In this document: positions 17,115-30,924 of the stretch, piece after piece | Position numbering within the stretch: position 1 is the stretch's first letter | How the letters are laid out: each line of letters begins with the position of its first letter | Origin: Verrucomicrobiia bacterium DG1235 | GTDB lineage: Bacteria; Verrucomicrobiota; Verrucomicrobiia; Opitutales; Opitutaceae | Direction: 5' to 3' | DNA: 64,000 bases | Assembly (NCBI GenBank): GCA_000155695.1 | Contig: DS990592.1 | Span: forward strand, 4,167,820-4,231,819 | Notes under the pieces: model-generated | Told to the model about the DNA's origin: nothing | What the model saw: only the letters and a program-made list of their open reading frames with translations | Database searches by the model: none | Program-made: the position numbers and the translations under genes

Positions 17115-18461
17115 ATGGAACCCTTATCACGGCGTGAAATGATAAAGGCCTCGGCCTTGGCGACCGCTGGCGCGATCGCTTTTCCTAACGTAATGCTCGG
17201 TCAGTCCGGGCTTTCTGCTAATAGCAAGGTGAATATCGCCTTCGTTGGAGCGGGAGGCCGCGGCAAAAACAACATCCAGGCGTTGGCCCGCGAGAATATC
17301 GTGGCTCTTTGCGATGTGGACGAAGAACGGTCGGCCGAGATGCGAGCGGAAGTCCCGAACGCGAAGTATTTTAAAGACTATCGAGTAATGCTTGATCAGA
17401 TGGGGTCGGAGATTGACGCCGTCGTGATTACGACTCCGGATCACATGCACTATCCGATCGCCATGTGGGCGATCGCCAATGGCAAGCACGTCTATTGCGA
17501 GAAGCCTTTGACTCGCTGCATCTGGGAGGCTCGCGATCTTCGTCGAGCGGCTTCCGAGGCGGGTGTCATTACTCAGATGGGCAACCAAGGCCACACTTAT
17601 GCGGGGCTTCGTTTGATTCAAGAGTGGTACGCGGCGGGAATTTTGGGAGAGGTGAAGGACGTCTACCACTGGACGAACCGTCCTTTCTGGCCGCAGGGCT
17701 ATCTTTCGCGTCCGTCTGAAAAGGTGCCGGCTCATGTTGACTACGACTTGTGGTTGGGGGTTGCTCCGAAGAAGTCTTATTCCAGCGCGATTCTGCCCTT
17801 TAACTGGCGTGGTTGGCGTGACTATGGCTGCGGAAGCGTGGGCGATATGGCGTGTCATATCATGGACGCTTCCTACAGCGGCCTCGGTTTAGGTTATCCG
17901 GAGTGGGTCGAGGCCCAGGGCACGCGCTTTAACAATAATACGTTCCCGTCGGCTATGACGGTGCAGTTCGGATTTAAGACAAAGAAGGGGACTGACCTGA
18001 CGGCTCACTGGTTCGAGGGCGGTCCTAAGCCGATTGGCATTAAGAACGTCCCGACAGACTTTTTCCGCAGCGATCAGTATGGCCGCGACACTGCGAACGG
18101 CACGTTTATCGTTGGTGAGGATATCACGATCTATACGGATACTTATTCGAGTAGCGTGCGCGTCTTCCCGGATGAGAAGTTCGATGAAATCAAGCCGAAC
18201 TTGCCTGAGAAGACTCTCCCAAGAATCAAGGGTGGTCCGCAGAAGGAATTTGCCGATGCGATCCGTAATGGAACGATGCCGGGCTCGAACTTTGACTATG
18301 CGGCGCCGTTCACGGAGGTCGCTTTACTCGGAAACGTGTCGCTCTATGCGGGTGAGCGTATTGAGTACGACCCTAAGAAAATGAGAGTTAAGAACGTGAA
18401 AAGCGCGAATAAGTACCTGCGTAGCTTGTACGATTACAATAAGGAGTTCTTGCCTGCCTAA
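17115..18461 (+). CDS. Tat-exported Gfo/Idh/MocA-family oxidoreductase 1
   Basis: A 448-residue dehydrogenase-like protein with a twin-arginine signal (SRREMIKAS followed by a hydrophobic stretch), so it should be folded with its nicotinamide cofactor before export to the periplasm. The Rossmann motif FVGAGGRGKNN is near residue 44 and the family motif YCEKPLTRC near 130. It heads a unit of seven closely spaced or overlapping genes. Tat-exported members are common in Verrucomicrobiota and Bacteroidota and are thought to act on sugars or glycosides (established family knowledge, exact substrate unknown). Confidence 0.9.
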   Translation: MEPLSRREMIKASALATAGAIAFPNVMLGQSGLSANSKVNIAFVGAGGRGKNNIQALARENIVALCDVDEERSAEMRAEVPNAKYFKDYRVMLDQMGSEIDAVVITTPDHMHYPIAMWAIANGKHVYCEKPLTRCIWEARDLRRAASEAGVITQMGNQGHTYAGLRLIQEWYAAGILGEVKDVYHWTNRPFWPQGYLSRPSEKVPAHVDYDLWLGVAPKKSYSSAILPFNWRGWRDYGCGSVGDMACHIMDASYSGLGLGYPEWVEAQGTRFNNNTFPSAMTVQFGFKTKKGTDLTAHWFEGGPKPIGIKNVPTDFFRSDQYGRDTANGTFIVGEDITIYTDTYSSSVRVFPDEKFDEIKPNLPEKTLPRIKGGPQKEFADAIRNGTMPGSNFDYAAPFTEVALLGNVSLYAGERIEYDPKKMRVKNVKSANKYLRSLYDYNKEFLPA

Positions 18462-18505
18462 GCTCCCTTTAGGAATCGAGAACGATATAATAAAAAGGAA
18501 ACGAG

Positions 18506-19039
18506 ATGAAAGAAGAAGACTCTGGGAATGGATTCCAGGTTGATAGTTGCGGAGCGTCGATAGCGTTCTTGCTTTTACGCGTATGGCTTGGGGTTCGGTC
18601 TCTTTTGACTGGTCTTGAGAAGTTCGCGGGAATTGAGACGAAGCAGCGTCCGTTGTTGGATGAATTTGGCGATCCGGACATCAGCGGAGCCATGGTGAAC
18701 GTGAAGGAGAAGGTGTATGGGTTTTCCCACTACCATGGGTTGCCGAAGCCGCTCTACGACAAGTTTGCCGCTGAGCCTCTGATGCCGGTATGGATGCTTG
18801 ATCTCTATTCGGGCGTGCTGGGCTATATCCTGCTGTTGCTAGGGGTACTGCTTCTTCTCGGAGCGCTTCCTCGCATCACGCTCCTCGCGAGTGGACTGGT
18901 CTACGTCAGTCTTTCTGTCGGTCTCATTCTGCTCAACGAAAGCGGTGGTATTGCTTGGCTTGCCACTCACATGATCCTCATCGCTCTGGCTGCGGTACTT
19001 GTTAAGTACAACCGGTTCGCGATCGGTAACAAACTATAG
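18506..19039 (+). CDS. DoxX-like membrane protein 1
   Basis: A 177-residue inner-membrane protein with about four hydrophobic segments (near 20-40, 100-118, 122-142 and 150-170) and a soluble insertion between the first and second. The opening FLLLRVWLGVRSLLTGLEKFAG is the DoxX-type start. AGGA precedes the ATG at a good distance. It sits between two exported oxidoreductases with gaps of 44 and 18 bases, suggesting a membrane partner or electron-transfer role, which is inference. A paralogue lies at 26570-27028. Confidence 0.75.
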   Translation: MKEEDSGNGFQVDSCGASIAFLLLRVWLGVRSLLTGLEKFAGIETKQRPLLDEFGDPDISGAMVNVKEKVYGFSHYHGLPKPLYDKFAAEPLMPVWMLDLYSGVLGYILLLLGVLLLLGALPRITLLASGLVYVSLSVGLILLNESGGIAWLATHMILIALAAVLVKYNRFAIGNKL

Positions 19040-19057
19040 AAGAAAAGGACTATTCGA

Positions 19058-20386
19058 ATGTCGGATGAACCGAAATCAAAACCCCTCTTTCGTAGGGATT
19101 TCATAAAGACAGGCTTGATTGCTGGAGGCGGGATTATGATCGCGCCTCATCTGGCCCGAGCTCAGTCGGCGAATGGCGAGGTGAATGTCGCTCTCATCGG
19201 TCTTGGGGTCCAGGGTCGTGTATTGCTCGACTCGATGTTGAACATCCCCGGAATCCGCTTCCGCGCGGTTTGCGATATCTGGGAGTACAGTCGTCGCTAC
19301 GGGCAGAGAAAGCTGCAGAAGGAAGGCTTTGAAGTTAACGTTTACGAGAACATCGAGGACTTGCTCGACAAGGAGAAGGATCTTGATGTGGCGATCGTTG
19401 CGACGCCTGACTTCTGGCACGCTCGCCATACGAATTTATGCTTGAAGGCGGGGCTGCACGTGTACTGCGAAAAGATGATGGCGCGCACTGTGGAAGAAGC
19501 TCGTTCGATGGTGCTCACTGCACGCGAAACGGGAAAGCTTCTACAGATCGGTCACCAGCGTAGAAGCAATCCGCGCTACCAGCACGCGTATAACAACCTT
19601 ATCCAGAAGGCGAAGATTCCGGGTCGTATCACCAACCTAAACGGTCAGTGGAATCGAGCGGTCACTCCAGACATTGGCTGGCCAAAGAAGTACGCTTTGC
19701 CCGACGATATCCTCAAGCGTTACGGCTACGAGGACATGCACCAGTTCCGCAACTGGCGTTGGTTCAAGGATCTTAGCGGTGGTCCGATTTCGGATCTCGG
19801 CGCTCACCAGATCGATATTTTCAACTGGTTCCTCGATGCGTATCCAAAAAATGTATTCGCGAGTGGTGGAGCTGACTACTATCCGAATCGCGAGTGGTAT
19901 GACAACGTGATGGTGATCTACGAATACGACACGTCTTACGGACCGGTTCGCGCATTTTACCAGACGCTCACGACCACCAGCGCAGGTGGCGGCTATTGGG
20001 AGTATTTCATGGGCGATGAAGGCGCTGTTAAGATGTCGGAGAATCCAAACCTCTCGAAGATCTTCCGCGAGGAAGGCGCTCCAAGCTGGGACAAGTGGAT
20101 TGACCTGCACTATTTGACCCAAGAGGAAGCTCCACCGCCTGCGGAAGATGCTAAGGTCGACGTGCGCGAGACGGCTCCGCTGGCCAAGTTCGATATCCCT
20201 ATCGTGCTCGACAAGCCACCGCATCAGCCGCACTTGGAGAATTTCTTCGCTGCGGTGCATGGAAAAGCCAAGCTCAACGCCGATGGTGAACATTCCTTCA
20301 AGAGTGAGGTCGGCATCTTCCGGGTGAACGAGGCTGTGGAGGCGAAGTGCCTTCTCGAGTTCTCTCCATCAGACTTTGAAGCTTAA
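19058..20386 (+). CDS. Tat-exported Gfo/Idh/MocA-family oxidoreductase 2
   Basis: A 442-residue second exported oxidoreductase. The N-terminus has FRRDFIKTG plus a glycine-rich hydrophobic core and an ARAQS-type cleavage site. The NAD-binding motif LIGLGVQGRV is near residue 48, and HVYCEKMMARTVEEA replaces the usual EKP with EKM, an unusual change in the conserved lysine-proline motif. It is distant from the first copy, so it probably has a different substrate or the two form a mixed complex. It is 18 bases after the DoxX-like gene and 12 before a secreted discoidin-like gene. Confidence 0.88.
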   Translation: MSDEPKSKPLFRRDFIKTGLIAGGGIMIAPHLARAQSANGEVNVALIGLGVQGRVLLDSMLNIPGIRFRAVCDIWEYSRRYGQRKLQKEGFEVNVYENIEDLLDKEKDLDVAIVATPDFWHARHTNLCLKAGLHVYCEKMMARTVEEARSMVLTARETGKLLQIGHQRRSNPRYQHAYNNLIQKAKIPGRITNLNGQWNRAVTPDIGWPKKYALPDDILKRYGYEDMHQFRNWRWFKDLSGGPISDLGAHQIDIFNWFLDAYPKNVFASGGADYYPNREWYDNVMVIYEYDTSYGPVRAFYQTLTTTSAGGGYWEYFMGDEGAVKMSENPNLSKIFREEGAPSWDKWIDLHYLTQEEAPPPAEDAKVDVRETAPLAKFDIPIVLDKPPHQPHLENFFAAVHGKAKLNADGEHSFKSEVGIFRVNEAVEAKCLLEFSPSDFEA

Positions 20387-20398
20387 TCAAAACGAATT

Positions 20399-21046
20399 AT
20401 GACAAAGAAAATTTTATCAATCGCGCTTGTATCCGTCGTGCCCTTACTGGCGGCTGCAGAAAAGGTTCAGATCGAATTGGAATACCCGCCTCCATTTTTG
20501 ACGGGTACGCCGGTGCCGATCTCGTTGCCGAATCTCGAGTCTCCCGATGCTCCTCAAGCGGCTGTGTATGCGCCTGCTGGCGTCGAGAATATCGCCTATG
20601 AAAAGGAGGTCACTTCCAGTGACGACTTTCCGATAATCGGTGAACTCGAGCTGGTGACTGATGGCGACAAGGAAAGTGAGGAAGGCTATTTTGTTGAGCT
20701 CGCTCAAGGCCCGCAATGGGTGCAGATCGATCTCGAGGATGAGGCGAAGCTTTATGGAATCGGTATCTGGCATTTCCACACGCAGAAACGAGCCTATGTG
20801 GATATGGTTGTTCAGTTATCGAATGATGAAGACTTCTCCGATGGGGTCGTAACCGTTTTCAATAACGATCACGATAACAGCCTCGGTTTTGGTGTTGGCA
20901 AGGACATGGCCTATATTGAAACCAACCAAGGAAAGCTTATTTCGGCGAAGGAAAACTCAGCTCGCTATGTGCGTTTGTATTCAGATGGCAATACGAGTAA
21001 TGAGATGAACCATTACGTCGAGGTCGAGGTGTTTGGCGCCTACTAG
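20399..21046 (+). CDS. Secreted F5/8-type C (discoidin-like) domain protein
   Basis: A 215-residue protein with a Sec signal peptide (cleavage after about residue 20, LLAAAEK). A beta-rich domain from about 65 to 213 looks like a galactose-binding/F5/8 type C fold: NIAYEKEVTSSDDF, LVTDGDKESEEGYFVEL, WVQIDLEDEAKLYGIGIWH, and ARYVRLYSDG. This fold usually binds carbohydrate. It lacks a catalytic module, so it may present glycans to the exported oxidoreductases. Its last 14 bases overlap the next gene. Confidence 0.72.
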   Translation: MTKKILSIALVSVVPLLAAAEKVQIELEYPPPFLTGTPVPISLPNLESPDAPQAAVYAPAGVENIAYEKEVTSSDDFPIIGELELVTDGDKESEEGYFVELAQGPQWVQIDLEDEAKLYGIGIWHFHTQKRAYVDMVVQLSNDEDFSDGVVTVFNNDHDNSLGFGVGKDMAYIETNQGKLISAKENSARYVRLYSDGNTSNEMNHYVEVEVFGAY

Positions 21047-22556
21047 AAACAATCTTTACGTTTTTTGGGTCCTAGCGCTCCTCGCGCTAGGGCTCGCTTT
21101 TTGGCTGCGAATCGAAAGTTCGCAGCTTCGTCTTTTTCATGCGGATGAAGGAGTCCAATCCTATCAGGCTTGGCGTTTGATAGAAGAGGATTTCTATCGC
21201 TACGATGCGAGTGAGCATCACGGTCCTTTGCTCTATTATATTTCGAAGTGGATGTATCCACTTCTAACTGACGCGGATGGCGAGCTGACGGATGCTGGCA
21301 TGCGGCGCGTGCCAATGGTTTTCAGTTTGGCGATGATTGCCTTTGGGATTTTGGTGTTGAGACGGCGTGGTATGATTGAGGCGATTCTATGGGGGCTGAT
21401 TGTCGGAGTTGCTCCGCTTTGCGTTATTTATGGCTCCTACTTTGTTCAGGAGGCCTTGCTGGCGTGTTTTACCTTAATCTTTATAGTGACTCTCTTTTCC
21501 TATTGGCGAAATCCGAGTTGGGGCGGTGCGGCGCTAGCCGGTCTAGCTTTGGGATTAATGCATGTGACGAAGGAGACTGCGGTTCTGCATGTTGCCTCGA
21601 TTGCTCTTGCTTTGGGCGTGTTGGCGTTTGTGGGGAATGAGAAATTCAAGGCTTCGTTTTCTGTTGCGGCTAAGCATCTGGGGCTCGTTTTTGGTATCGT
21701 ATTTTTGCTTCATTGTTTTTTCTTTTCTTCCTTTTTTGAGAACCCAGCAGGGATTCTTGACGGGGTTTCTGCGTTTTTCAGTTATGCGGAGCGCTCGAAA
21801 GGACAGGGGCATGAGAAGCCATTTCTGTATTACTTTATGCTGTTGTGGCCGCATAGCCGTGAAGGTGTTGCTTGGGGAGAGTCGGCGTTCTTAGTGACTG
21901 TTGCAATTGGAGTCGGGGTATCTGTCTTTCATGCATCAAGAAACTCGTTTCGCTTTTATCTCGTTGCGTGCGGCTTGCTGTTGTTTTTTGTGTATTCGCT
22001 GATTCCATACAAGAACCCTTGGCTGCTGCTAACGCCCTATTGCTTGCTGGCCTATGCGGCGGCATGCGGGTTGGTGGAATTGGGAAATGGGATTGGCATG
22101 CGGTTTCGCTGGGCAAAATCGTGCTTGGCAATTGTTCTGGCTTTCTGGCTTGGCAGCGAGCTTTGGGGGAATGCGAAAAAGGCGGTATTTCAGTTTTCGA
22201 GCGCGAGTCGGAATCCATACCTCTACATGCATACGACTTCCCGATATGCGAAGCTATTGGATCGGCTTGAGACGGTGAAGGGTAAGGAGGATATATCTAT
22301 TTACAGTCCGGATGCGGCGTGGCCGTTGCCGTGGCATCTTCGCGGGTGGGATCGCGTTGGTTATTGGACTGATCTTGGCAGTTTTCAGGCAGGTGTTATT
22401 GATGTGATTGATACGCGTTTATTGGAGAGTGAAGCTGCTGTTATGTCTGATGGGGGATTTTGGGAGTTGCATGGCTTGCGTCCCAATACCTTGTTGGCTT
22501 TAAGGGCTTCTGACGAAATCGCGGAACGATGGATCAGGGAAAATGCTGAAGATTGA
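21033..22556 (+). CDS. Polytopic GT-C-type glycosyltransferase (Agl23/TIGR03663-like)
   Basis: A 507-residue membrane protein with roughly ten hydrophobic helices. The first helix is followed by HADEGVQSYQAW, the acidic motif expected for GT-C enzymes that use lipid-linked sugars, and then HHGPLLYY. This pattern resembles the TIGR03663 (Agl23-like) family. The apparent start is TTG at 21033, inside the end of the previous gene. No later start keeps the first helix. The C-terminal 90 residues are soluble. It is overlapped by the ApbE gene. The product could glycosylate an exported partner, which is inference. Confidence 0.75.
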   Translation: MAPTRNNLYVFWVLALLALGLAFWLRIESSQLRLFHADEGVQSYQAWRLIEEDFYRYDASEHHGPLLYYISKWMYPLLTDADGELTDAGMRRVPMVFSLAMIAFGILVLRRRGMIEAILWGLIVGVAPLCVIYGSYFVQEALLACFTLIFIVTLFSYWRNPSWGGAALAGLALGLMHVTKETAVLHVASIALALGVLAFVGNEKFKASFSVAAKHLGLVFGIVFLLHCFFFSSFFENPAGILDGVSAFFSYAERSKGQGHEKPFLYYFMLLWPHSREGVAWGESAFLVTVAIGVGVSVFHASRNSFRFYLVACGLLLFFVYSLIPYKNPWLLLTPYCLLAYAAACGLVELGNGIGMRFRWAKSCLAIVLAFWLGSELWGNAKKAVFQFSSASRNPYLYMHTTSRYAKLLDRLETVKGKEDISIYSPDAAWPLPWHLRGWDRVGYWTDLGSFQAGVIDVIDTRLLESEAAVMSDGGFWELHGLRPNTLLALRASDEIAERWIRENAED

Positions 22557-23418
22557 CGAGAGGGAAGGCCTGTATCGCTTTCGCCATGAAGCGATGGCGA
22601 CTGAGCTCGTGCTTTCACTTGGCGGAGTTGATGCAGATTACGCGCGTCAGGCGGCTCAGGCTTTTTTTGCTCGGGTGGATGAGGTCGAGGCAAAGTTGAG
22701 TTTGTATCAGGAAAGTAGTGACGTAACGCGTATTAATCTACTTGAAGCTGGTACGGAAACGCGGGTCTCGGAGGAGTGTGTCGATTGCTTGCAGGTGGCC
22801 ATGTTGGCTAGCGGTCTAACGGGCGAGAGATTTCATCCCTTTCTCGGACGGGAGTCATTGCGGAGGAAGGGTGGTGAACCTTTTTTTCTGAAGCATTTGA
22901 TGGCCGGAGAAGGAGCGCTGAAAGGTAGCCCTGCAATAGAGATTGATCCTGAAAAGCGACGAGTGATAAAGCTTGGAGAAGGTATGGTGTTGGACTTTGG
23001 CGGGATCGGAAAGGGATTCGCTTTGGATTGCGCGATGGAGGAAATCGAGGATTGGGAAGTGCCGATCGCTATGGCGAATTTCGGGGGGAGCACTTTGTTG
23101 TTTCGGGGCGAGGAGCGCGAGGGAGCTTGGACCGGTACGCTTTGCGGCGAGGCTTTGCAGCCATTTTGTTCGGGCGCGATTTCCAGTTCGGGTGTTGGCT
23201 TTCAGGGGGAGCATATCGTCGGGAGCGAGATTCGTTGGGATCGCAGTTTCGCTCGCTGCCAGTCTGCGGCTATGGCGGATGCGTTAACGACCGGAGCGAT
23301 GTTGATGAGCGAATCAGAACTGGATGCTCTAGGAGCTGCTGAGTCCGGTCTGGCTTTAGCAGCGACTTGTAGTTCTATAAATTGGGGAGTGAAACCGTTT
23401 TGCTCATGGAAGGCGTGA
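22543..23418 (+). CDS. ApbE-like FAD:protein FMN transferase
   Basis: A 291-residue ApbE-family protein, the enzyme that attaches FMN to threonine or serine of target flavoproteins. Visible blocks are FRHEAMATEL (usually AMGT, here glycine to alanine), LDFGGIGKGFALD, and the metal-binding MADALTTGAM. The usual SHIIDP is degenerate (GEHIVGSE). There is no signal peptide or lipobox, unlike many secreted ApbE proteins, so it should be cytoplasmic. It overlaps the GT-C gene by 14 bases and the GT2 gene by 13. No flavinylation target is obvious in the operon. Confidence 0.82.
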   Translation: MLKIDEREGLYRFRHEAMATELVLSLGGVDADYARQAAQAFFARVDEVEAKLSLYQESSDVTRINLLEAGTETRVSEECVDCLQVAMLASGLTGERFHPFLGRESLRRKGGEPFFLKHLMAGEGALKGSPAIEIDPEKRRVIKLGEGMVLDFGGIGKGFALDCAMEEIEDWEVPIAMANFGGSTLLFRGEEREGAWTGTLCGEALQPFCSGAISSSGVGFQGEHIVGSEIRWDRSFARCQSAAMADALTTGAMLMSESELDALGAAESGLALAATCSSINWGVKPFCSWKA

Positions 23419-24140
23419 AATTGGATTGTTTTTTAGTGATTCCCTGTTTTCACGAAAGTGAGCGTGTACCGGAATTCTTGAACCTTTTATGCGCGGAAAT
23501 CGCTTCGAGCGGGCTTTCGGTTGGGGTTCAGTTAGTCGATGACGGGTCAGGCACTCGGGAAGTGGAGCAGCTTCGGAAGGTGACTTCGCGTGTTCGAAAT
23601 GTGTATCCATTTGTTGGAGAGGTATTCGCCTTGAAAGAAAATGGAGGCAAGGGCTTGGCGATCCGATCAGGATGGGCTTTGGCCCCTGATGATTGCCCGC
23701 TGCTGGGCTTTGTCGATGCGGATGGTTCGGTCGCTGCGAGCGAAGTGGTGCGAGTCTTGCGTGTGGCTCTTGACTTGGATGAAGAGAGTCTAGTGATGGC
23801 GAGTCGAAGAGCGAAAGGAGCTCGTGTAGAGCGCTCGCTGTTTCGAAAATTTCTAGCGGGGTCTTTTTCTCTGATGACGCGTGTTTTTTATGGAATCCGA
23901 ATTTTGGATACGCAGTGCGGATGCAAGTTTGTTTCCGGGCCTTGGTATCGTGAACAAGCTCTCGCTTTCAGCGAGGATGGGTTTGGATTGGACTTGGAAC
24001 TAATCCTTCGGGCTCGGGAGAGCGGGATGTCTATCCGGGAGGTGGGAGTTGCGTGGAAGGAAGTGTCGGGGAGCAAGGTTGGCTTTGAAAGCTGCTGGAG
24101 ACTAGGCAAGGCGGTCGCGCTACGTCGGATAGGCGGTTAA
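23406..24140 (+). CDS. Glycosyltransferase family 2 protein
   Basis: A 244-residue cytoplasmic or membrane-associated GT-A enzyme. LVIPCFHESERVPEFLNLL opens the fold. Nucleotide-sugar binding residues are in QLVDDGSGT, the metal motif is in GFVDADGSVA, and DTQCGCKF and DLELILRA follow. This pattern is typical of dolichyl-phosphate mannose/glucose synthase-like enzymes that make polyprenyl-phosphate sugars. That would supply the lipid-linked donor for the GT-C protein two genes upstream. ATG 23406 (overlapping the ApbE stop) is preferred over TTG 23382. It ends 12 bases before a converging gene. Confidence 0.85.
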   Translation: MEGVKLDCFLVIPCFHESERVPEFLNLLCAEIASSGLSVGVQLVDDGSGTREVEQLRKVTSRVRNVYPFVGEVFALKENGGKGLAIRSGWALAPDDCPLLGFVDADGSVAASEVVRVLRVALDLDEESLVMASRRAKGARVERSLFRKFLAGSFSLMTRVFYGIRILDTQCGCKFVSGPWYREQALAFSEDGFGLDLELILRARESGMSIREVGVAWKEVSGSKVGFESCWRLGKAVALRRIGG

Positions 24141-24152
24141 GGCCGGATGCTT

Positions 24153-26423
24153 TTATTGGGTTTGGTCTACGGTGAGGTACTGGTTTATTGTTGGAGATTT
24201 GATTGAGGTTGTTTCGCCGTCCGGCCAATGAATGCGTAATTGGTTTATGGTTACATTTGATCCAAGGCCGAAGTTCAGGTTTGAGGCGTTTTGTCCTGAG
24301 AAGACTTCTCCGTGGGTGTAGAGCCGCTCGCTGGTGTAGTCGGGGCACTCGATGACGACTCGGGTGCCGAGGATTGGTTTTCCGGGAGTTGGGCGTAGGG
24401 TGACGCCGATCCAGTTGCCGGTGTTTTTGAGTTGATTGTGGTAGAGGTGCACGCGTTCGAGTGACTGGATGGAATCTAGTTCGATTAGGAGTAGGTCTAC
24501 GCGCCCATCACGGTCGAAGTCTTCGCCGATGACCGCTCGACCGTCGCCGCCGTGTGAAAGGCCGTAGAGGTAGGCCACGTTTAGGAAGCCTTTTCCTTCG
24601 AGGTTGAGATAGAAGTGATCTTTTTCGAATGGATTCCAGCCCATCTGATTTCCGCCTACGAGGGCTTCGGGACCGAACTGGGTGTAGAAGGAGTCAAGCT
24701 GTTCGCTAGAGAAGGCGGATTCGGAGTAGATGTCGTGAGTCCAGAAATTGGTGCAATAGTCGCGGGCGGTGGACTTTGAGAGGTAGCCGTTTGCGATGAA
24801 AATGTCCGGGTAGCTGTCGTTATTGAAGTCTTTCGAGCTGCTTCCCCAAGACCAGCCTGAGCGGGCGACGTTTTCGCTGGTTTCTCGTTGAGCGAGGTGT
24901 CCTTTGGGGTCGCCGTAGTAGAGGCGATTGCCTTTGGCGATGCGCATGCGCATTTTTTGGTGTTCGGGAAATTCGTCGCGTCCGAGCCCCATTTGCTCGA
25001 GTCGGCGAGCGGTGGTGGAGCTCATGCCTACGGCGAGGAGGTCGGTGGCTCCGTCGCGATCGAAATCAGCGAAGGCGTGGCTCATGCCGAAGAGGCTTCG
25101 GTCGTCGAGGTATTCGGAGGTTTTGTCGATGAGGGCGCCGTTTTGGTTTTCGTGTACGTCGACTCCGGAGAAGTCGCTTGTCACCAGAAGGTCAATACGC
25201 TGGTCGTGGTTAAGGTCCTGGAAGGAAGCGGTGAAGGCGCGTCGGCCGCGTTTTTGGGCGATGGAGGATTTTTCGGTGATGTCTTCGAAGAGCAGGTTGC
25301 GGTTGTTCTTGAGGAGGAAGGCGGGGCGTCCGTCGTTGGCGTCGAAGTAGGGAGTGGGGATTTTTCCGTTTTCGTAGATGGGGGCAGATTGGCCAAGGTA
25401 TATTTCCGGATATCCGTCACCGGTAATGTCACCCGCTGCAAGAAGACCGGTTTTTAAAGGCGTATCGGATTTCCAGATACCGAAAGGTTTGCCATCGAAG
25501 GAGTTGGTGGCTTTATTGAAGGTGTATGCAAAAAGGTAGGGAGCGTCAGCGGTGGAGAGGACGTACTCTATTTTTCCGTCAAGGTTGAGGTCGGCGAAAA
25601 AGGCTGCGGTGGGGAGTCCGCGGATCATGAATTTGGCCAGTTGTGTTTCCTGGAACTGGAAGTTCCCCTTGTTGAGGTAGAGGGCGTTTTTTCGGGGGAA
25701 GGCGATGTCGGGGAGTCCGTCCTGGTTGAGGTCTTCGACAAGCACGATCCCATAGGGTGTGGTGTTTGGCTTGGATTCGAGCCACTTGGTAGGCTTGGAG
25801 ATAGGCGTATTGTTTCGAGTGAGGATCTCCATTTTTTGGATACGAATGGAGTTTGGATAGCTGATTTCGTTCTCTGGGGCATCTTGCCATGCGATGGCGA
25901 GCGTGCCTTTGAGGATGTAGCGCTGCGGATTTGAATTCGGACCCGATACGTGGAGGGCAAAGGTGAAGGTGGAGGTGGGTGCTTCGTTTTCCTGGGCGTT
26001 GAAGGAGGCGTGGTGCCATTCGCTTTGCTCGATGCGGAATCCTTGGCGTTGGTAGGTTTCTACGAGCTGTCGAAAGTCGCTTTGGGAGAGCGGCTTTACC
26101 GTATCGCTGGCGGGTACGAAGGACTCGATGCCGTCTTGGTAGCTTTGGGCGTGGGTGAATGACGGTAGCTCAAAGCGATCGAAGGGGAATTGTATAAGGG
26201 CGACGGACTGGTCTTCGTGACGTCGCATCTCGTCCCAGAGGTTGATAAATGCGGTTTCGTAGCGCTGGGCGAGTTTTTCCTGTTCCCAAATGGAGCCGTC
26301 GAGGGCTTGGCGCTGGTCGATGATGGCATCGATGTCACTGGCGTTCAGCGGCGCGATTGTAAAGAGGACGAACCAGAGAATAATCGTGACTCGATGGAGG
26401 GGGCTAGGGGTAGATTGGGGCAT
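24153..26423 (-). CDS. Secreted FG-GAP (VCBS) repeat protein with ASPIC/UnbV domain
   Basis: A 756-residue secreted protein: signal peptide to about residue 28, a charged helical region, then a beta-propeller of FG-GAP calcium-binding repeats (EDLNQDGLPDIAF, FADLNLDGKIEYV, AGDITGDGYPEIYLG, QDLNHDQRIDLL, ADFDRDGATDLLAVG, KDFNNDSYPDIFIANGY, EDFDRDGRVDLLLIE). The end (about 695-750) is an ASPIC/UnbV domain with LRIHWPDGETTSI. Such proteins are abundant in Verrucomicrobiota and Planctomycetota and are thought to bind ligands at the surface. No enzyme motif is present. It is convergent with the seven-gene operon. Confidence 0.87.
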   Translation of the reverse strand: MPQSTPSPLHRVTIILWFVLFTIAPLNASDIDAIIDQRQALDGSIWEQEKLAQRYETAFINLWDEMRRHEDQSVALIQFPFDRFELPSFTHAQSYQDGIESFVPASDTVKPLSQSDFRQLVETYQRQGFRIEQSEWHHASFNAQENEAPTSTFTFALHVSGPNSNPQRYILKGTLAIAWQDAPENEISYPNSIRIQKMEILTRNNTPISKPTKWLESKPNTTPYGIVLVEDLNQDGLPDIAFPRKNALYLNKGNFQFQETQLAKFMIRGLPTAAFFADLNLDGKIEYVLSTADAPYLFAYTFNKATNSFDGKPFGIWKSDTPLKTGLLAAGDITGDGYPEIYLGQSAPIYENGKIPTPYFDANDGRPAFLLKNNRNLLFEDITEKSSIAQKRGRRAFTASFQDLNHDQRIDLLVTSDFSGVDVHENQNGALIDKTSEYLDDRSLFGMSHAFADFDRDGATDLLAVGMSSTTARRLEQMGLGRDEFPEHQKMRMRIAKGNRLYYGDPKGHLAQRETSENVARSGWSWGSSSKDFNNDSYPDIFIANGYLSKSTARDYCTNFWTHDIYSESAFSSEQLDSFYTQFGPEALVGGNQMGWNPFEKDHFYLNLEGKGFLNVAYLYGLSHGGDGRAVIGEDFDRDGRVDLLLIELDSIQSLERVHLYHNQLKNTGNWIGVTLRPTPGKPILGTRVVIECPDYTSERLYTHGEVFSGQNASNLNFGLGSNVTINQLRIHWPDGETTSIKSPTINQYLTVDQTQ

Positions 26424-26504
26424 TTGAAGGGTAATTTAATTAAGAGGCAATTTAGCGCAACATAATTGCGTTGAATTAGGACTGGGCTGAGTTCTGGAAA
26501 CGCA

Positions 26505-26535
26505 AAACGCCCCAGCCGATGTAGCTGGGACGTTT
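26505..26535 (-). terminator. Intrinsic terminator after the DoxX-like gene
   Basis: AAACG-C-CCCAGC (26505-26516) pairs with GCTGGG-A-CGTTT (26524-26535) around a 7-base loop, with one mismatch. Read on the minus strand the stem runs into a T-rich CGTTTTGCGTTT stretch. It lies 35 bases beyond the stop of the DoxX-like gene and before the FG-GAP gene start. Confidence 0.7.
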
Positions 26536-26569
26536 CGATTCGGGGTAGTTTTGTATCTAGAGTCTGCGG

Positions 26570-27028
26570 CTAGCGCAGGCTTTCAAATTTGTTGTGCCTT
26601 ACGAAGTAGAGGGCGGCGGTGGTGAAGAGGAGGTAGAAGCCGATCTCGTTCACTTTGCCGCCGTCTCCGAGGACCATTTGCCCGTAGGCGAGGGAGACGA
26701 AAGTGAGAGCGATGAGGGCGAGGACGTACTTGGTCTTGACTCCGAGGAGAAGCAGGAGTCCGAGGATGATTTCGACGTATCCGATACAGTAGGCGTAGAT
26801 GGATACGAGGAAGCCGGGAATGTCGGTCTTCTCGAAGGCTGAGATCATCCAGGGAACGACGCCGTTATAGTAGCTTTCGAAGGAATAGTCCCCGTCCTGG
26901 TTTTTGAATTTGCCGAGGCCGGCAAGCAGGAAGCGGAGGCCTAGGAAGAGCCGGAGAGAGATGAAGGCCCAAGATTCGGCGGACCAGTAGAGAGGAGACC
27001 CGTTGCGTTGCGCGGTCTTTCGTGCCAT
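26570..27028 (-). CDS. DoxX-like membrane protein 2
   Basis: A 152-residue inner-membrane protein with about four hydrophobic helices, beginning FISLRLFLGLRFLLAGLGKF after a short polar N-terminus. It resembles the DoxX-like protein at 18506-19039 (shared LGKF/LEKF, LLLLLGV, FVSLAYG/YVSLSVG and NKF/NRF near the end). It is followed by a good intrinsic terminator. Upstream at 93 bases is the BASS transporter gene on the same strand, possibly cotranscribed. Function is unknown; the family is linked to redox and membrane-stress complexes. Confidence 0.78.
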   Translation of the reverse strand: MARKTAQRNGSPLYWSAESWAFISLRLFLGLRFLLAGLGKFKNQDGDYSFESYYNGVVPWMISAFEKTDIPGFLVSIYAYCIGYVEIILGLLLLLGVKTKYVLALIALTFVSLAYGQMVLGDGGKVNEIGFYLLFTTAALYFVRHNKFESLR

Positions 27029-30031: not shown

Positions 30032-30619
30032 TTACCGGGATTCGCTGGCCGTCTTTTTCTGGCGTTTCTTGAGCTTCTTTAGTTTGCCCCAGTCCTCTTT
30101 TCGAACGATGTGGCCGACGCAGTTTTCTGAGCCGCAAAGACAGGGGTGGTCTTTCCAATGTTCCAGGGCGTAGCCGTAGTCGAAGGTAATCTCCTCGCCT
30201 TTCTTGATCTCTTTGAGCGACACGAGCCAGATTTCGCCTTCGACGTTTTGGGCTTCGCAGTTGGGCGAGCAGGAGTGGTTGGCGAGTCGGGCGATGTTCC
30301 AGTCGAAGTTTCCGTCGATATCGGTCTTGTCGTCGAGTTCGAAGATGTAGACGGCGCCGACGTCTTCGGATTGGGAGAGGTCGTGCTGACTGTTTGCGCG
30401 CTGGGTGGACTCTTTCTTTTTGACGAGTTCGCCGAGGTATTGGATGACGTATTCGTCTTCCGGTATGCGCTTGGCGGCGAAGAGTCCGCGATTGTGAATG
30501 GATGACTCGGACGCTCGGACGTAGGGAAATTCTGGCGGGTCGCCGTTTTCGTCGAGGCCGATGTAGACCGGCTTTTTCTTCTTTTTAGGAGCTTTTTTGG
30601 TTTTTGATTCTTTGCCCAT
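30032..30619 (-). CDS. SET-domain protein lysine methyltransferase
   Basis: A 195-residue protein (starting at ATG 30619; an ATG at 30664 would add 15 residues and overlap the preceding gene). It begins with a run of lysines, then a SET domain: SSIHNRGLFAAKRI binds AdoMet, NHSCSPNC carries cysteines and the pseudoknot asparagine, and EITFDYGY holds the catalytic tyrosine. A post-SET CxCxxxxC follows (CLCGSENC) for zinc. The lysine-rich tail at the C-terminus is also notable. Targets in bacteria may be ribosomal or histone-like proteins, but none is known here. It lies between a DUF167 gene and the LysM amidase, all on the minus strand. Confidence 0.88.
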   Translation of the reverse strand: MGKESKTKKAPKKKKKPVYIGLDENGDPPEFPYVRASESSIHNRGLFAAKRIPEDEYVIQYLGELVKKKESTQRANSQHDLSQSEDVGAVYIFELDDKTDIDGNFDWNIARLANHSCSPNCEAQNVEGEIWLVSLKEIKKGEEITFDYGYALEHWKDHPCLCGSENCVGHIVRKEDWGKLKKLKKRQKKTASESR

Positions 30620-30639
30620 AGGGAGCTTGGAAGGGTGGT

Positions 30640-30924
30640 TCAAGGGCGGGGAAGTCGCTGCCATTGGCTAGAGGAGAGTCGCTCGAAGGCAATCAATTTC
30701 TGTCTGCTGGTCTCTCCGCGAGCGATGCTGATTTGGTTTTTGGATACGCCGGTTTCTTTGGCGAGAAACGCGATGAGGGCTTTGTTTGCCTTGCCGTCTT
30801 GTGGGGGCGACTGGATGCGGATCTTGAGGCTGCCGTCTTCGAGCCAGCCGGCGATTTCGCTTCGGGAAGCGTTGGGCAGCACCTTGACGGAGAGGATATG
30901 CTGGCTGGTCGGGGAACTCGGCAT
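30640..30924 (-). CDS. DUF167 (YggU-like) protein
   Basis: A 94-residue small protein of the YggU/DUF167 family. LSVKVLPNASRSEIAG, LKIRIQSPPQDGKANKALIAFLAKE and ISIARGETSRQKLI are the family signatures. The biochemical function is not established. It precedes the SET gene by 20 bases (using the ATG at 30619), so the two are probably cotranscribed with the amidase gene. Confidence 0.9.
   Translation of the reverse strand: MPSSPTSQHILSVKVLPNASRSEIAGWLEDGSLKIRIQSPPQDGKANKALIAFLAKETGVSKNQISIARGETSRQKLIAFERLSSSQWQRLPRP

Follow-up and report, generated by a model that had tools for sequence, protein, structure and literature searches.

What could a bacterium gain by keeping exported sugar oxidoreductases, two glycosyltransferases and a flavin transferase side by side in a single gene cluster? 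The question is raised by seven genes at 17115-24140 of the window, the 64,000-nucleotide stretch of Verrucomicrobiia bacterium DG1235 DNA analysed here. Our preferred answer, held tentatively, is that six of these genes form an envelope redox system and that the seventh is an accessory: an extracytoplasmic sugar dehydrogenase would feed electrons to quinone or cytochrome, and a dedicated branch of the system would carry out a covalent modification. The argument is built on the gene set itself, its co-occurrence among genomes, fusions between its genes, catalytic residues that are kept in orthologs, and the finding that DoxX and a cytochrome exclude each other. The initial annotation of this DNA, made from the letters alone, had described seven + strand genes separated by gaps of 44, 18 and 12 bases and then overlapping by 14, 14 and 13 bases. 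An open reading frame (ORF) check of the window recovered all 7 ORFs on the + strand at those coordinates, and the recomputed spacings were exact. The family assignments also held when examined with Pfam and TIGR profiles, homology and predicted folds. The predicted features are listed below; Tat denotes the twin-arginine translocation pathway.

17115-18461, +, Gfo1, Tat-exported Gfo/Idh/MocA protein, optional accessory (PF01408/PF19051)
18506-19039, +, DoxX-like membrane protein, core (homology to the window's second DoxX protein)
19058-20386, +, Gfo2, Tat-exported Gfo/Idh/MocA dehydrogenase, core (PF01408/PF22725/PF02894)
20399-21046, +, Disc, secreted discoidin (F5/8 type C), core (Pfam just under cut-off; Foldseek)
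21033-22556, +, GT-C membrane glycosyltransferase related to TIGR03663 (Agl23), core (TTG start)
21066-21135, +, two terminator-like hairpins with T-rich tails within the start of the GT-C gene, possible attenuator
22543-23418, +, ApbE-like flavin transferase without signal peptide, core (PF02424)
23406-24140, +, GT2 of the polyprenyl-phosphate-sugar synthase type, near-core (PF00535; ATG start at 23406)

Conservation and transcription of the cluster

To see how widely the arrangement is kept, we searched the ApbE and GT-C proteins against 132 genomes of the order and inspected 40 neighbourhoods, and scanned the genome collection with a Gfo2 profile, which gave 80 named loci (L, G and f numbers are our own handles for loci, genomes and families). 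The order DoxX - Gfo2 - Disc - GT-C - ApbE, with GT2 nearby or divergent, is repeated over many families of the order, and most of the 80 loci carry the same cluster. Syntenic copies are found in Verrucomicrobiota, Acidobacteriota (L167 Occallatibacter, L171, L183) and Planctomycetota (Phycisphaerae, L184), and the closest named relative by Gfo2 is Pelagicoccus mobilis (86% identical), which marks the source of the window as a Pelagicoccus-like bacterium within Opitutales. The same order in many families and in other phyla is far more than chance would produce. In genomes with GT-C and ApbE at other places, the module-type GT2 often adjoins Disc, as in L193.

Co-occurrence was followed in a phylum-wide sample of 195 genomes and in an order sample that includes 41 Disc genomes. 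Disc is present in 30 of the 195, a strong GT-C in 33 and a strong ApbE in 29; GT-C accompanies Disc in every case (30/30, Fisher 3e-32) and ApbE in 28 of the 30 (Fisher 2e-30). Since Fisher p-values ignore shared ancestry, the pattern within families carries more weight; among genomes of the window's own family, Disc and GT-C occur together in 8 and are both missing from 11. Nor does linkage alone explain the co-occurrence, as Disc and GT-C lie >6 kb apart in 10 of the 26 genomes where both could be placed. In the order sample, with profile searches included, GT-C is present in 38 of the 41 Disc genomes; several Disc genomes that were negative by single-sequence search proved by profile to hold a divergent GT-C or ApbE.

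As judged from gene order and co-occurrence, the conserved unit is six genes (DoxX-like, Gfo2, Disc, GT-C, ApbE and GT2), found across three phyla. The grouping of all seven genes in the initial annotation thus stands for these six, on the strength of synteny, unlinked co-occurrence and fusions, and fails for Gfo1, which is variable. A Gfo1 ortholog lies upstream of DoxX in 15 of the 60 loci with enough room for one, and it is absent at the P. mobilis locus, where a gene for an adenosine monophosphate (AMP) ligase directly precedes DoxX. Being so scattered, and missing from the nearest relative, Gfo1 was rejected as a core member. As a separate observation, in family f16 GT-C, ApbE and DoxX-Gfo2-Disc stand at separate places, all of them present.

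A single transcript had been considered very likely from the spacings and overlaps, which are exact, and an internal terminator had been named as the finding that would speak against it. The hairpins at the Disc/GT-C junction go part of the way towards such a terminator. The stem of the first is kept in P. mobilis (L108), where a T-A pair has changed to C-G on both sides. Hairpins that resemble terminators were counted at 13 of 62 Disc/GT-C junctions, compared with 1 of 232 other junctions in the cluster. Within GT-C genes that have Disc upstream we counted 8 in 57 (mean of synonymous shuffles, 1.3), and in those without Disc upstream 4 in 26 (mean, 1.0). Their presence at GT-C starts without Disc upstream indicates that the hairpins are not specific to the Disc/GT-C junction. 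They weaken the case for one evenly expressed transcript, and the simplest reading of their position is that attenuation would keep the transferases at a lower expression level than the exported enzyme.

The exported dehydrogenase and its membrane partner

What, then, might the conserved unit do? The strongest functional clue is the replacement of DoxX by a cytochrome. Across the loci with Gfo2, 91 carry DoxX, 6 carry the cytochrome, 0 carry both and 4 carry neither; these last 4 start at or near a contig edge. In the six loci where it replaces DoxX, the cytochrome gene follows Gfo2 (L184:11465-13399, L190:3464-6199, L191:9504-12110, L192, L161 and L170). The protein has seven CxxCH motifs, as counted in three copies, those of Verrucomicrobiota carry C-terminal membrane helices, and in L184 the gene is followed by a separate one of cytochrome b561 type. 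The exchange of DoxX for a seven-haem cytochrome at the same place is strong evidence that the system has a redox role; it suggests that the membrane partner carries electrons and points to an electron-transfer system. The DoxX-like protein of the window has no Pfam match of its own, PF07681 included; it is homologous to the Pfam-DoxX protein encoded at 26570-27028 (BLASTP, E=1e-7), and its L069 and L072 orthologs give weak matches to DoxX/DoxD/MauE. We note in passing a longer form of about 410 residues, with a large insert between the membrane helices, in L069 (9849-11087) and L070 (5261-6484).

Both Gfo1 and Gfo2 bear N-terminal RR motifs, and an RRxF/L motif is found in 88 of 92 Gfo2 orthologs. 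Gfo2 combines a PF01408 domain with the conserved active-site Lys and His of the Gfo/Idh/MocA family (K139 and H250), which together with D246 and D253 are invariant in 99/99 orthologs. The nearest solved structure is DgpA, a glycoside 3-oxidising enzyme, and GFOR is also among the PDB matches. Scores with the glycoside 3-dehydrogenase model NF058561 (BT_2158 family) are 369.8 bits for Gfo1 and 75.7 bits for Gfo2, both under the cut-off of 750; by this comparison Gfo1 belongs to the BT_2158 neighbourhood. A 3-keto-disaccharide hydrolase (PF06439) is encoded in the operon of L191, and taken with DgpA as the nearest structure it makes C3 the likely, though inferred, position of sugar oxidation by Gfo2.

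The third exported component, Disc, scores just below the Pfam cut-offs, and its predicted fold matches CBM32/F5-8C domains in Foldseek. One residue, Thr37, is invariant in 95/95 orthologs. It lies in a proline-rich N-terminal segment ahead of the folded domain, where the confidence of the structure model is only moderate, and is a candidate modification site, while its conservation may also have a structural cause.

The glycosyltransferases, ApbE and its putative flavin acceptor

The GT-C protein scores 110.2 bits with TIGR03663, under the cut-off of 126.25. A PDB sequence-profile search with it gave no match, so we turned to its predicted structure. The best Foldseek matches of the AlphaFold model (mean predicted local distance difference test score 91.7) are OST/STT3, Pmt4, ArnT and ALG12, a resemblance in fold which makes it probable that GT-C uses a lipid-linked sugar donor, and residues H36, D38 and E39 are invariant in orthologs. 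GT2 has a PF00535 domain and a weak resemblance to ArnC-type synthases, and an order of action in which GT2 is followed by GT-C is plausible. As an observation on the surroundings of GT-C, in families f16 and f19 its gene adjoins a thioesterase-like gene (L090, L092, L094, L096, L099, L100 and L105).

Gene fusions connect these enzymes with ApbE. A single ORF encodes both ApbE and GT2 in G126/L067, L109, L110 and L121, which probably represent one lineage. In G231 (L188) an ORF of 739 residues joins the second half of GT-C to ApbE; the first half of GT-C is there in another frame, possibly through a frameshift or sequencing error, and the split gene with its fusion occupies L188:1595-4124. Together the two kinds of fusion suggest that the proteins act on the same material.

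On which molecule would ApbE act? The protein matches PF02424 with 76.6 bits (cut-off 25.6). In an alignment with the Vibrio enzyme its S216, H224 and D246 coincide with the catalytic triad Ser241, His257 and Asp285. Of 80 orthologs, 78-79 retain these residues, and competence for flavin transfer is plausible on this alignment. A hydrophobic N-terminus is absent in 84 of 85 orthologs and present in one. The known flavinylation motif is D-x-x-[S/T]-G-A-[S/T] (PMC12052999), and no cluster protein in about 100 loci contains it; canonical targets within the cluster were rejected on this ground, and for the same reason transfer of flavin mononucleotide (FMN) to a cluster protein is unproven. A family scan of the cluster proteins found no FMN_bind protein among them. 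Some genomes, the window's own included, do hold FMN_bind proteins elsewhere; we rejected these as the usual partner, since 22 of the 32 genomes with Disc, GT-C and a strong ApbE have no FMN_bind match. In a first-look search of the small genomes G051, G065, G067, G092 and G115, the cluster-type ApbE was the only ApbE-like candidate. The lack of the motif in the cluster, the lack of FMN_bind in so many core genomes and the sole candidates in small genomes make a new type of ApbE acceptor likely.

Possible functions and relation to known systems

How might these parts work together? In the redox system that we favour, Gfo2 would be exported in folded form through Tat with nicotinamide adenine dinucleotide, or its phosphate, bound. 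Once outside the cytoplasm it would oxidise a sugar or glycoside, with C3 as the most likely position, and the discoidin would dock either Gfo2 or its substrate. Electrons would pass to the DoxX-like membrane carrier and presumably on to quinone, or in other lineages to the seven-haem cytochrome with its cytochrome-b-type helices. GT2 would make a lipid-linked sugar and GT-C would transfer the sugar on the outer face, while cytosolic ApbE would transfer FMN. An exported partner would thereby carry a covalent group, which may serve Gfo2 by letting hydride electrons enter one-electron carriers. That the transferases serve the electron-transfer system appears to us more likely. Several observations weigh against this picture. 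The three Disc genomes in which even profile searches found no GT-C include one assembled in 3 contigs, and Disc is missing from G079, which does have GT-C and ApbE. The module-type GT2, present in 30 of the 41 Disc genomes, is missing in 11, and the absence of the flavinylation motif from the cluster has been described above.

A possible though doubtful alternative, that of the initial annotation, is that an extracellular glycan is assembled by GT2 and GT-C and oxidised by Gfo2 and the discoidin, and that ApbE flavinylates a partner. The carbohydrate-binding type of the Disc fold and the nature of GT-C and GT2 as glycan enzymes agree with this, and co-occurrence would suit a pathway equally well. 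However, it offers no explanation for a cytosolic ApbE fused to GT2 or GT-C, and the genes for 3-keto-disaccharide hydrolase and for transporters of the major facilitator superfamily (MFS) near some copies agree better with a foreign sugar being taken up and broken down than with modification of the cell's own glycan. The same fusions would be left unexplained if ApbE placed FMN directly on Gfo2 as it folds in the cytosol before Tat export, with GT2 and GT-C separately glycosylating Disc or Gfo2. We regard this as unlikely, because the motif is absent from Gfo2 as from all other cluster proteins, even though ApbE lacks a signal peptide, Tat substrates fold in the cytosol and in Klebsiella a cytosolic ApbE is known to act on a target that is itself cytosolic (PMC12052999).

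The fusions join exactly the activities of ApbE, GT2 and GT-C, as would be expected if ApbE placed FMN on the polyprenyl-phosphate-linked sugar made by GT2 and GT-C moved the flavin-sugar to an exported protein, perhaps at Thr37 of Disc. An acceptor outside the known types and the invariance of that residue are consistent with such a route. It is nevertheless quite improbable: no such chemistry is known, the module-type GT2 is lacking in more than a quarter of the Disc genomes, and Thr37 may be kept for structural reasons. If true, it would add a new way of installing covalent flavin on the extracytoplasmic side. Very improbable indeed is that ApbE, with its intact triad, serves ordinary FMN_bind targets of the NQR/RNF type elsewhere in the cell and stands in the cluster only incidentally. 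FMN_bind proteins do exist in some genomes, among them that of the window, but the latter has four further ApbE genes, most core genomes lack an FMN_bind match, and this ApbE shows a weak association with FMN_bind (p=0.05), compared with about 1e-19 for Disc.

Does the redox system that we favour resemble anything already described? DgpA, the structure nearest to Gfo2, is cytosolic; Gfo2, by contrast, carries a Tat signal and is linked with membrane carriers. The score of Gfo1 with NF058561 is a further likeness to the glycoside 3-dehydrogenases, and both proteins falling below the cut-off is a difference. GFOR of Zymomonas is, like Gfo2, a Tat-exported Gfo/Idh/MocA enzyme and has a tightly bound nicotinamide cofactor, which it recycles with a second sugar, whereas this cluster encodes a membrane electron carrier alongside. 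The weakly ArnC-like GT2 and a GT-C fold like those of ArnT, Pmt4, ALG12 and STT3 recall the ArnC/ArnT, DPM/PMT and Agl23 systems; unlike these, the cluster couples them to ApbE and an exported dehydrogenase, and its GT-C remains under the TIGR03663 cut-off.

The nearest parallel on the side of flavinylation comes from the survey of Meheust et al. (2021, eLife, PMC8238504), in whose systems an ApbE-family enzyme likewise shares a conserved cluster with a redox enzyme that is exported and with membrane electron carriers that can stand in for one another. They differ in that here ApbE is cytosolic, neither FMN_bind nor the motif occurs in the cluster and glycosyltransferases are included; the main text of the survey names no glycosyltransferases, no DoxX and no Gfo proteins. 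Only clusters in which a key protein carried a signal peptide or lipidation site were retained in the survey. Neither an ApbE nor an FMN-binding protein with such a site is encoded here, and the cluster would be excluded unless the exported partner were counted. A cytosolic ApbE that apparently lacks a target of known type and is tied to glycosyltransferases thus represents a class excluded by the design of the main flavinylation survey.

The initial annotation knew of no described system with this gene set, and our literature search, with subscription journals mostly outside its reach, likewise found no published description, whether under ApbE with DoxX and a glycosyltransferase, under TIGR03663/Agl23 or under Gfo/Idh/MocA proteins with a multihaem cytochrome. 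Genomes of Verrucomicrobiota and Planctomycetota are very rich in genes for exported Gfo/Idh/MocA proteins. A cluster that ties one of them to interchangeable electron carriers makes the extracellular re-oxidation of bound nicotinamide testable.

Several neighbouring genes deserve mention. An MFS transporter family lies close to the cluster in 15 loci (e.g. L071:3550-5085) and perhaps imports the oxidised sugar. In the window, genes for an FG-GAP/ASPIC-UnbV protein and the second DoxX protein (24153-27028, -) are convergent to the cluster, and this pair also adjoins it in Pelagicoccus mobilis. Further along, a SET-domain protein (PF00856, 82 bits) is encoded at 30032-30664 (-); in small genomes of host type from this order (L090, L092, L094 and L096) its relatives are encoded next to GT-C.

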